From NCBI GenBank assembly GCA_003566455.1, contig PXDF01000101.1, positions 1 to 60,625 of the forward strand: 60,625 nt of DNA. The letters run 5' to 3'. Every line of letters begins with the position of its first letter. Position 1 is the stretch's first letter. The position numbers and the translations under genes are program-made. Positions 16,415 through 57,620 of the stretch are shown here, one piece after another. This DNA comes from Desulfonatronovibrio sp. GTDB lineage: Bacteria; Desulfobacterota; Desulfovibrionia; Desulfovibrionales; Desulfonatronovibrionaceae. The notes below the pieces were generated by a model. That model had not been told where the DNA came from. It searched no databases and saw nothing but the letters and a program-made list of their open reading frames with translations.

Positions 16415-16465
16415 AAGCTGATCCTTATCTCGTCTCTATAACAGCCTGAAAAAGTCCCTATTGAG

Positions 16466-16589
16466 CAGGGCGTTCAAAAATTCCAAGTGCAAGGAGCAAA
16501 AAAAGTTCAAGGTCGATGCGTATTTAGACATACGTGAGAGTTTGAAGTTTTGGACGCGACGAAGCAATTGGGAGATTTTCAACGCCCTG
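16466..16589 (+). repeat. Repeat family A, copy A1 (MITE-like, about 124 bp)
   Basis: Ends are inverted: CAGGGCGTT at 16466-16474 and AACGCCCTG at 16581-16589, with the similarity continuing inward (TTCAAAAATTCC against GGGAGATTTTC). The interior matches copy A2 at 57386-57578 in reverse orientation, including AGCAAAAAAAGTTCAAGGTC and GCAATTGGGAGATTTTC. Similarity extends about 20 bases outside the left end. It sits between the corrinoid-protein gene and MttB copy 1, and its right end contains the corrinoid gene's stop codon. Confidence 0.85.
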
Positions 16590-54006: not shown

Positions 54007-54085
54007 CAAGCTGTTCAAAAATTCTCACGCCTTGGCGTGAGAATTTTTGAAAGGTCTGTCTAATAAGGACTTTTTTAACACGCTG
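54007..54085. repeat. Repeat family A, short copy A3 with perfect hairpin
   Basis: TTCAAAAATTCTCACGCC at 54014-54031 pairs perfectly with GGCGTGAGAATTTTTGAA at 54034-54051 around two T. The flanking TCTAATAAGGACTTTTTTAA (within 54058-54080) matches the outer part of copies A1 and A2 (complement of AAAAAGTCCTTATCAGGCAG), but the middle of the family is missing. It lies in the 368-base gap between the CorC-like and MucR genes, which holds no other feature I can support. Confidence 0.75.
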
Positions 54086-54161: not shown

Positions 54162-54560
54162 TTATTTAACCTTGGCGGTTCTTTTCTTCCATAATTCCAT
54201 TTTCTGCATGTTCTTGCGTCTGTCCCTGGCCAGAGCCTTGCAAACCAGAGAAGTATTTTTCTTGAAACCCCATTTTTTCTTGTACTCTTCTGGAGTCAGT
54301 TCATGCTTGGCCAAATGTTTCTTGGTAATAACCTTGAATTGCTTGCCGCACTCAAGACATACAATGCTTCTTTCTCTGATTGATTTTTTGGGATCTACTG
54401 CTGGATCTTGCTCATCATTAGTCAGCTGTTCTTCGGAAACTGCGGATTTTATTCCTTTGATCACATTCATGATCATAGAATTAATTTCTTCTTCTGTCAT
54501 GTTGCGTACGCTTGCCTGAGCCTTAACTATTTCAATAGCCTGTTTAATATAATCTTCCAT
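54162..54560 (-). CDS. Ros/MucR-family zinc-finger transcriptional regulator
   Basis: A 132-residue regulator from ATG 54560, which has GGAGG 5 bases upstream. The C-terminal half carries the MucR domain: CLECGKQFKVITKKHLAKHE (C2H2-like, with CX2C and HX4H), then LTPEEYKKKWGF and a basic tail that binds AT-rich DNA. The N-terminal helix (residues 1-50) likely mediates oligomerisation. It reads away from the structured leader and umuC. The homologues act as H-NS-like silencers in alphaproteobacteria; many deltaproteobacteria carry several copies. Confidence 0.93.
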   Translation of the reverse strand: MEDYIKQAIEIVKAQASVRNMTEEEINSMIMNVIKGIKSAVSEEQLTNDEQDPAVDPKKSIRERSIVCLECGKQFKVITKKHLAKHELTPEEYKKKWGFKKNTSLVCKALARDRRKNMQKMELWKKRTAKVK

Positions 54561-54836: not shown

Positions 54837-54864
54837 TTGACATTGCTTTTACTTTAGTTAATAT
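54837..54864 (+). promoter_or_regulatory. Strong sigma-70 promoter driving the leader and umuC operon
   Basis: TTGACA (54837-54842), a 16-base spacer and TAATAT (54859-54864). Both hexamers are near consensus. Predicted transcription start is at about 54871, immediately before the structured leader. Confidence 0.7.
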
Positions 54865-54876
54865 TTTTTTTAAAAA

Positions 54877-55015
54877 GGTGCCTTGGAGGCTTTAAGGAAG
54901 CCTGCCCAAAATCATCAGGACCAAAGGCCTGCTGTCTTCATAGCTCGTTGCCGGATCTTGTCGGGGAGGTAAAATCAACGACTTGAAAATTACAGTCAAG
55001 ATACTGGCCGGCACC
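54877..55015 (+). ncRNA. Candidate structured leader or small RNA, unidentified
   Basis: GGTGCC at 54877-54882 can close with GGCACC at 55010-55015. Inside are AGGCTT/AAGCCT (54887-54903), CAGG/CCTG (about 54916-54931), TCGTTG/CAACGA (54945-54981) with a nested CCG/CGG, and CTTGA/TCAAG (54982-55000). GGA triplets occur at least five times. An AT-rich stretch with a T run follows (about 55031-55041). This could be a riboswitch, a regulator-binding sRNA or a 5' UTR. No known RNA class was recognised; the structure was derived by eye. Confidence 0.4.
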
Positions 55016-55051
55016 GGCGATTATTCTTAATATATTTTTTTCGCTATTAAG

Positions 55052-55065
55052 TTTACATAAGTAAA
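55052..55065 (+). promoter_or_regulatory. Operator-like inverted repeat before the Cys-protein gene
   Basis: TTTAC-ATAA-GTAAA is a perfect 5-bp inverted repeat 17 bases before the ATG of the 52-residue protein gene, overlapping the region just upstream of its ribosome-binding site. A repressor (for example a LexA-type SOS protein) could act here, but no known consensus was matched. Confidence 0.35.
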
Positions 55066-55082
55066 TAAAAAGGAGGATGAGA

Positions 55083-55241
55083 ATGCAGGAAAGATTTTGT
55101 ACATGCGGACATAAAATTTTTGTGGCCTATGTAGTGACCTCAAGGGGAATCTACCACCTTTACAAACCCCTGGCCAGGATGAAAGAACTGATGAAGTGTC
55201 CTTCCTGCGGACGCTCGATTAATATTGACGACCTGTGCTGA
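55083..55241 (+). CDS. Small zinc-ribbon-like protein upstream of umuC
   Basis: A 52-residue protein with two Cys pairs, CTC near the start and CPSC before the end (RFCTCGHKIF and MKCPSCGRSIN), which fit a single zinc ribbon. AGGAGG lies 7 bases before the ATG. The stop TGA directly abuts the umuC ATG, so the two are co-translated. It stands where umuD is normally found but shares no UmuD features (no Ala-Gly cleavage site or Ser-Lys protease pair). The function is unknown. Confidence 0.7.
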   Translation: MQERFCTCGHKIFVAYVVTSRGIYHLYKPLARMKELMKCPSCGRSINIDDLC

Positions 55242-56546
55242 ATGACCAGGTTTTACGCCCTTGTTGACTGCAATAACTTTTACGTATCCTGCGAGCGGGT
55301 CTTCAATCCCAGGCTTAACAATATCCCGGTTGTGGTCCTGTCCAACAATGACGGGTGCGTAATAGCCAGGTCCAACGAAGCCAAGGCCCTGGGCATAAAG
55401 ATGGGGGCCCCTGCTTTTAAAAACACAGATCTGTTTGAAAAACACGGGGTCCAGGTCTTTTCGTCGAATTATGCTCTGTATGGAGACATGTCCTGCCGGG
55501 TCATGAGCAGCCTGTCCGGATTTGTTCCGGATATGGAGATTTATTCCATAGATGAAGCCTTCCTCTTGTTAAACAACCTGCCTCAAAAACCAGATCCTTT
55601 TGCCCGGGAGATAAGGGAAAAAATACTCAAATGGAATGGCATACCTGTTTCCATCGGCATCGGCGTCACCAAGACCCTGGCCAAGATCGCCAACCGGTTC
55701 GCCAAAAAACATGCTGCTCATGAAGGTGTCCTGGACCTGACGGACAATCCCCGGTTTAAGGAATATCTCCAGCAGACCGACATTGAAAATATATGGGGGA
55801 TAGGGCGCAGGTATGGTCTTGTCCTGAAAAGCTACGGGATCAGGACAGCCTGGGATTTTTCAAGACAGGACAGGGACTGGGTTAAATCCAGGATGACCAT
55901 AACGGGCCTGCAGACCTTGCTCGAAATCCAGGGCAGACCATGTTTTTCCCTGGAAAGAACTCCAAAGCCCAACAAAACCATCATCAGCTCCAGGTCATTC
56001 GGCAGCGGCGTTGAATCTCTGGAAGAGCTGGAAGAGGCATTGGCCGGTTACGTGACCAGGGCCGCTGAAAAGCTGAGGGGGCAAGGTTCAGTCTGCTCAA
56101 ACCTTACGGTTTTCGTCCTTACCAACAGGTTCAGAAAAGACCTGCCTCAATATACCAACTCTCAGACTATAAGAATGCCCCATCCTACTGACTATACGCC
56201 GCGTATTATCAAACACGCCCACAATGTTTTGAAAAAAATTTACAAACAAGGGTATGCCTACAAAAAAACCGGAGTCGTGCTGTCAGCAATCGAGCCAAAA
56301 AAACGGAAACAGCTCACTTTTTTCATGCCTTCCAGGGAAAGGGAAAAAAAAGAACAAAAGGTCATGTCGGTTATGGAAAAAATAAACAGCAGATGGGGCA
56401 GGGGAGCTATCAGGCCTGCGGCCGCCGGCACAAATAACAACGACAAGTCATGGAAAATGCGGAGAAACCTGCTCTCCCCCAGATACACCACCTGCTGGAG
56501 CGAGTTGCCTGTTGCTGACGCAGACATTAATATATCAGGTACTTGA
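55242..56546 (+). CDS. umuC: Y-family DNA polymerase UmuC (Pol V catalytic subunit)
   Basis: A 434-residue translesion polymerase. Catalytic carboxylates are in [17 protein letters not shown] and YSIDEAF, and the palm and little-finger regions follow, ending with a typical [11 protein letters not shown] region near residue 385. The length is normal. It is preceded by the small Cys-rich protein gene rather than umuD; no umuD is seen anywhere in the window. The unusual partner may be supplied in trans, or the small protein may take part. Confidence 0.95.
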
Positions 56547-57363: not shown

Positions 57364-57385
57364 TTAGCTGAACAATACAGATTAA

Positions 57386-57598
57386 CAGGCTGAAAATCTC
57401 CCAATTGCTGCGTCGCTTCAAAAAGTTCAAACTCTTACGTATGGATAAATACGCTGCGACCTTGAACTTTTTTTGCTCTTTATCCGGCACCCACTTGCGT
57501 AGGTATTATCCCGGCATAAATATTTACTAACATCACAAGTGGGTGCCGGACTGTCGCTTGGAATTTTTGAACAGCCTGCCTGATAAGGACTTTTTCAC
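57386..57598 (-). repeat. Repeat family A, copy A2, carrying the 66-bp cassette C1
   Basis: Core element 57386-57578 with inverted ends CAGGCTG and its complement. On the minus strand it matches A1: GTCCTTATCAGG, CTGTTCAAAAATTCC, GAGCAAAAAAAGTTCAAGG, then CAATTGGGAGATTTTCAG. Without the 66-bp insert it is 127 bp, against 124 bp for A1. It fills the gap between the MBL and GDH genes. Confidence 0.85.
57484..57549. repeat. 66-bp cassette C1 with 14-bp perfect inverted ends, inserted in A2
   Basis: CCGGCACCCACTTG at 57484-57497 and CAAGTGGGTGCCGG at 57536-57549 flank a 38-base core. A1 lacks this segment at the corresponding place, showing it is an insertion into family A. The only other copy in the window is C2 at 59156, also 66 bp long. 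The cores of the two copies differ. Confidence 0.85.
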
Positions 57599-57620
57599 AC
57601 TGTTAAGCAAAGGATGAAGC

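Follow-up and report, generated by a model that had tools for sequence, protein, structure and literature searches.

RecA-triggered self-cleavage is established for LexA, CI, HdiR and UmuD and is the chemistry of S24 repressors. In a few clades, captured phage repressors are known to run SOS control independently of LexA, and the described systems closest to the locus analysed here resemble it in the following respects. HdiR of Lactococcus and Streptococcaceae is presented as an S24 regulator that lies outside LexA, is independent of it, clusters with phage repressors and governs a minimal regulon of mainly error-prone polymerases (PMC8565304). The same source describes non-canonical S24 SOS repressors of Bacteroidetes, in which a CI-like N-terminus, a conserved Ala-Gly site and a Ser-Lys dyad are found and SOS genes are controlled (PMC8565304). 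In Acinetobacter, dispersed umuDC copies are under the LexA-free control of UmuDAb with DdrR, the latter encoded by a small partner gene beside the repressor gene (PMC7273328), and FddR of Francisella is an S24-family phage repressor that was co-opted, regulates itself and runs a small damage response (PMC13148647).

The window, i.e. the whole stretch of 60,625 nt that was analysed, belongs to a metagenome-assembled genome (MAG, labelled G000) of a Desulfonatronovibrio sp., with 2.75 Mb in 245 contigs and 4.4% contamination. It was compared with genomes of relatives labelled G001 and onwards, among which G001, G002 and G005 are of the same genus. In the relatives, presumably across the order Desulfovibrionales, a cassette occurs in the order operator O1, gene of a repressor of CI type with S24 peptidase, operator O2 and gene of a 52-aa zinc-ribbon protein, with or without umuD and umuC. 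Of these, the window retains O1, O2, the ribbon gene and umuC; absent from the locus are the repressor gene and umuD (Table 1). Very probably the locus is a derived copy of this cassette, in which the cis repressor gene decayed, umuD left and the operators were kept for a repressor acting in trans, the whole forming an SOS-like mini-regulon of DNA polymerase V that works without LexA. A first-pass annotation had described a strong promoter, an operator-like palindrome (TTTAC-ATAA-GTAAA), a 52-residue ORF whose stop abuts the ATG of umuC, and a umuC without umuD. Each of these was confirmed: P1 matches the promoter consensus at 10/12 positions, and nothing encoding umuD lies between the ribbon ORF and umuC.

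Table 1. Features of the umuC locus, in positions of the window
Feature	Position	Strand	Basis
P1, sigma-70-like promoter (TTGACA - 16 nt - TAATAT)	54837..54864	+	sequence; by homology the ancestral repressor-gene promoter
Operator O1 TTTACTTTAGTTAA, within P1 spacer/-10	54848..54861	.	position matches relatives
CI/S24 repressor gene relic (the 'structured leader')	54862..55030	+	C-terminal match; fold not significant
T7 tract	55035..55041	+	also after the repressor stop codon in relatives
Operator O2 TTTACATAAGTAAA	55052..55065	.	identical 14-mer at the same place in same-genus G001 (L008)
AAGGAGG ribosome-binding site of ribbon gene	55070..55076	+	sequence
Gene of 52-aa C4 zinc-ribbon-like protein	55083..55241	+	conserved partner of repressor in relatives
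umuC (DNA polymerase V catalytic subunit)	55242..56546	+	directly abuts ribbon gene; no umuD between

O1 and O2 are one palindrome, TTWAC-W4-GTWAA, which is present twice in the complete cassette of the relatives: O1 inside the repressor promoter just past TTGACA, and O2 upstream of the ribbon gene. The window's copy within the strong promoter (TTTAC-TTTA-GTTAA) had been missed in the first-pass annotation; TTGACA and operator read CTTGACATTGAGTTTACTTTTGTTAAT upstream of the repressor ATG in G001 and ATTGACATTGCTTTTACTTTAGTTAAT in the window. Allowing up to 2 mismatches, the operator was found in the 110 nt upstream of 21/22 repressor genes, compared with 2.7% of shuffles. The distance between O1 and O2 is ~680 bp where the repressor gene is present in relatives and 204 bp in the window.

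Sites of the form TTWACWWWWGTWAA number three in the window's assembly, namely O1, O2 and one before umuD on contig C108. Operators with the W4 core occur twice per genome in G001, G009, G025, G028 and G055, both at such loci, and in G040 and G052 two of three are at such loci; further W4 operators in relatives (L191-L195) adjoin unrelated genes. Scanned genome-wide in the window assembly, the pattern gave 7 sites with an N4 core (16 when reversed) and 3 with an A/T core (1 when reversed), so the motif is informative only with an A/T core. Repressor control of the polymerase, as proposed earlier, is well supported at the sequence level by an operator that appears real, duplicated and nearly private to such loci.

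The bases following P1 had also been interpreted as a structured 5' leader, with RNA-level control as a consequence. From its alignment with the relatives' genes, this leader is a worn-down remnant of the repressor gene and not a new regulatory RNA. In the frame ending with TAA at 55028-55030, the last 25 codons (54953-55027) read GSCRGGKINDLKITVKILAGTGDYS and align stop-to-stop with the repressor C-terminus, which ends in HGDEVDSLRIVGRVLWSSREYS in G009. Scored with its end anchored against 22 repressors, this peptide ranked first among the 4,745 stop-anchored peptides of the window (z 5.2), and 0/20,000 nucleotide or codon shuffles did as well; stop codon, T7 tract and O2 follow in the same order as in relatives. 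The relic is recognisable at the 3' end only, and only with stop-codon anchoring; unanchored local protein alignment of the spacer with the repressor was not significant (28/300 shuffles as good), and a candidate for the N-terminal part, IFFKKVP against DFFQRVA, is suggestive only. Nucleotide identity to the relatives in register is 39-49%, versus 60-75% among those relatives. No significant relic was detected in the O1-O2 spacer of G002. An assembly of so many contigs could bring forth a short O1-O2 spacing by misassembly, but this is hardly credible here, where the spacer carries a diverged relic with no clean junction and an independent short-spacer locus exists in G002.

That the leader instead evolved as a structured RNA controlling umuC (as riboregulator, attenuator or CsrA target), or as a free sRNA ending near 55040, is very improbable. 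A strong promoter stands ahead of it, and the part of the earlier claim that concerned its shape holds, as the MFE fold of 54870-55045 is a multibranch closed by GGTGCC/GGCACC with four internal elements. The part that concerned stability does not, since the fold is ordinary (z -1.70, with 14/200 dinucleotide shuffles folding at least as well; z -1.46 for a longer leader stretch). The GGA motifs, also singled out earlier, are five against a shuffle mean of 2.6 (p 0.09), which is not exceptional. The Rfam search of the leader gave no family match at gathering or permissive thresholds, the terminator search at the leader found none, and a homologous leader was sought in 60 relatives without a hit, only the promoter/operator and O2-ribbon parts being matched. 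Neither stability beyond chance nor covariation in homologues, by which a structured cis-regulatory RNA is recognised, was obtained, and the 3' part matches the repressor C-terminus; the proposed RNA-level control is thus not supported. A convincing 'structured leader' can turn out to be a gene relic.

The intact repressor of the relatives has 209 aa and joins an HTH of phage-CI type to an S24 domain. PF07022 (Phage_CI_repr) and PF00717 (Peptidase_S24) are both above cut-off in it, the window having the relic only, and its best PHROG match is the transcriptional repressor phrog_4 (E 1e-39 to 1e-42). An A87-G88 cleavage site, S127 and K164 are invariant in the repressor alignment (A1). The relatives' protein thus combines a phage-CI-type HTH and Peptidase_S24 with the Ala-Gly site and Ser-Lys dyad of the CI/HdiR type, and the distribution of operators fits putative binding at its own and at SOS-type promoters. 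Two other identities were considered for this protein and rejected. Canonical LexA does not fit an N-terminus of PF07022 instead of the LexA winged-HTH PF01726, nor scores of 19-25 bits with TIGR00498 (lexA) against a cut-off of 111, and a UmuD derivative of the UmuDAb type does not fit the PF07022 N-terminal domain and a phage repressor as best PHROG match.

LexA runs umuDC in many bacteria and could in principle control this site as well. Such control is extremely unlikely: the S24 search of the window genome returned no LexA, only a 24-bit partial match to the LexA DNA-binding domain is present there, and the operator tracks the CI/S24 repressor. Among 101 genomes, LexA DNA-binding matches of at least 45 bits were obtained in 10.

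The repressor seems, from the sequences at hand, to act in trans on the window's operators. By profile search, the first 28 repressor codons (MKFEDFFQRVARVTEINSQKQLADLLEV, E 4e-8) were found at positions 3-86 of contig C124 of the window genome, preceded by TTGACA and TTCACTTTTGTTAA, one mismatch from the operator. These codons lie at the very edge of the contig; no complete repressor gene was found in the window assembly, the part beyond them being absent from it. Given the 4.4% contamination, contigs C108, C124 and C245 are not certain to share one cell. A parallel to this dispersal is offered by G002, in which two operators with a short spacer precede ribbon-umuD, the full-length repressor gene, behind an operator of its own, is located 110 kb away, and umuC stands alone with an operator 211 bp upstream. 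In G005, also of the same genus, a repressor gene (L190, C203:531-1154) has no recognisable operator upstream and no detected ribbon gene.

The lack of a complete repressor gene in the assembly would also agree with an unregulated cassette, in which the repressor is gone, the operators are left over as relics and umuC is expressed constitutively from P1. We regard this as quite unlikely, as neither window operator departs from the consensus despite decay of the intervening ORF to the identity given above, C124 carries the 5' end of a repressor gene together with its promoter-operator, and an intact trans copy is kept in G002. The perfect operators around a decayed ORF suggest that something still binds them. 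The -35 region of P2 is TTTCGC in the window compared with TTTG[CT]C in relatives; P1 may accordingly be the principal promoter here, with the relic as its passive leader.

The UmuC of the window is ordinary, with the domains IMS, IMS_C and DUF4113, and scores 410.5 bits against the NCBIfam UmuC subfamily, just under the cut-off of 431. The relocated umuD on C108 lies behind the operator TTTACATTTGTTAA. A second umuDC pair is present in the assembly (L122, C245:1-3000), with a UmuC 68% identical to that of the window; C245 starts inside or just before umuD, so the upstream operator region is absent, and the pair may be a paralogue or a contaminant. Many relatives have repressor and ribbon genes but an unlinked umuDC without recognisable operator, hence polymerase V is not a universal target and the core of the regulon may be the repressor-ribbon pair alone. 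Upstream of four unlinked umuDC loci (L213, L217, L218 and L219) the best operator-like string is the same non-matching TTGACGGAAGCCAA, possibly a different shared promoter element.

The 52-aa ORF is, by its conservation, a real gene. Its product was found in 39/101 relatives, well beyond the family, and Q2, R4, C6, C8, V14, C39, P40, C42, I48 and L51 are invariant in 28 sequences, in all of which C6, C8, C39 and C42 form the two knuckles (CxC, CxxC) of a C4 protein. The dN/dS against two same-genus homologues is ~0.10-0.11, with dS near 1. An AlphaFold model (pLDDT 72.6) contains strands only; its fold search against the PDB gave no match, all Pfam and NCBIfam matches of the protein were below cut-off, and no homologue was found in plasmid and phage collections. 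In 38/40 cases (repressor profile search) the gene follows the repressor gene on the same strand at a distance of 51-395 bp, and only the window and same-genus G002 depart from this; upstream of most copies are the 3' end of another gene, which is the one encoding the repressor, a T tract and the palindrome, in this order.

Earlier, the small protein had been taken for a possible new accessory protein in place of UmuD. Two findings had been named as refuting the first-pass annotation, a lack of compensatory changes in homologous leaders and a lack of conservation of the small ORF: on the first count, no homologous leader turned up in which such changes could show, but on the second the ORF is indeed conserved in relatives, with umuC as a neighbour only in some. 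It is followed directly by umuD in 8/30 loci examined, in some also by umuC (ribbon-umuD-umuC in G009), and in most by neither, so that the protein is not a stand-in for UmuD, whose gene lies elsewhere here behind the same operator. A dedicated accessory factor of polymerase V, as UmuD-like manager or UmuC partner and not as partner of the repressor, would agree with the operons that the gene forms with umuD and/or umuC in several lineages and with its abutting umuC here; this is rather unlikely when nearly all copies follow a repressor gene, most without adjoining umuDC. The ribbon protein would act as a co-regulator or as a damage-induced effector: its linkage to the repressor gene favours the former, as for the small DdrR partner beside its repressor gene (PMC7273328), and its operon with umuDC in some lineages the latter. 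A further reading, which we hold to be rather unlikely, goes beyond this: the CI/S24 repressor and its closely linked ribbon protein might belong together throughout Desulfovibrionales as a conserved unit that responds to DNA damage without LexA, the ribbon protein linking metal or redox state to the activity of the repressor and polymerase V being only one lineage-specific target.

Some further elements were noted in the window. A dispersed repeat of ~216 bp (57385-57600, and 16447-16581; inverted arms 57483-57550) is matched 35 times in the genome, on many different contigs. In another family, an ORF between ribbon and umuD (L012) resembles part of this repeat, which therefore looks mobile or REP/MITE-like. 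At 54014-54051 there is a perfect 18-bp inverted repeat with a 2-nt loop, whose flank on the right (54041-54075) is 86% like 57561-57595, a section of that dispersed repeat; by this likeness it is probably a degenerate or related element. A regulator of the MucR/Ros family (PF05443) is encoded at 54162-54557 on the minus strand, divergent from P1, and in G055 the gene that comes next after the ribbon gene on its downstream side is mucR-like (L028).

For the derived cassette we propose the following course of events. The repressor would bind TTWAC-W4-GTWAA in its own promoter (O1) and in the ribbon/polymerase promoter (O2). In the window lineage the cis repressor ORF would have decayed to a short relic and umuD would have left the operon, and both operators would have been retained for a repressor that is encoded at another place in the genome and still acts on them in trans. 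Upon DNA damage, activated RecA would trigger self-cleavage of the repressor and release of O1 and O2, after which transcription of the ribbon gene and umuC would start from P1 and P2. Release of the C108 operator would induce umuD, restoring UmuD'2C in trans, and damage would induce all three proteins (ribbon, UmuC and UmuD) jointly. The relic would then be transcribed from P1 as an untranslated leader that has evolved no function. The window illustrates how such a regulon becomes dispersed: the repressor gene in cis is lost and its operators persist, it seems because they are still in use by a copy in trans.

That phage-type S24 repressors can control damage genes is already known, and a Desulfovibrionales case with a zinc-ribbon partner was not found described; literature on LexA or S24 control in Desulfovibrio was searched and none was found, which is no proof of absence, and the RegPrecise paper has no detail for the order Desulfovibrionales. 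The locus would add another clade to those with captured phage repressors, one of sulfate reducers mostly without recognisable LexA, and would bring in a new type of partner protein, the ribbon gene accompanying the same repressor in dozens of related sulfate reducers. The Bacteroidetes repressors differ in being reported as exclusive to Bacteroidetes and in a broader regulon, with no ribbon partner mentioned in the available part of the source (PMC8565304). FddR differs in its motif, GTG-N11-CAC, and its divergent gene targets, umuDC not being mentioned (PMC13148647). Compared with HdiR (PMC8565304), the present system is in another phylum and has the palindrome TTWAC-W4-GTWAA and a linked zinc-ribbon gene. 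In Acinetobacter the repressor is UmuD-derived and DdrR is divergently transcribed and unique to the genus (PMC7273328), whereas here a CI-type repressor is combined with a downstream, co-directional Cys4 protein.
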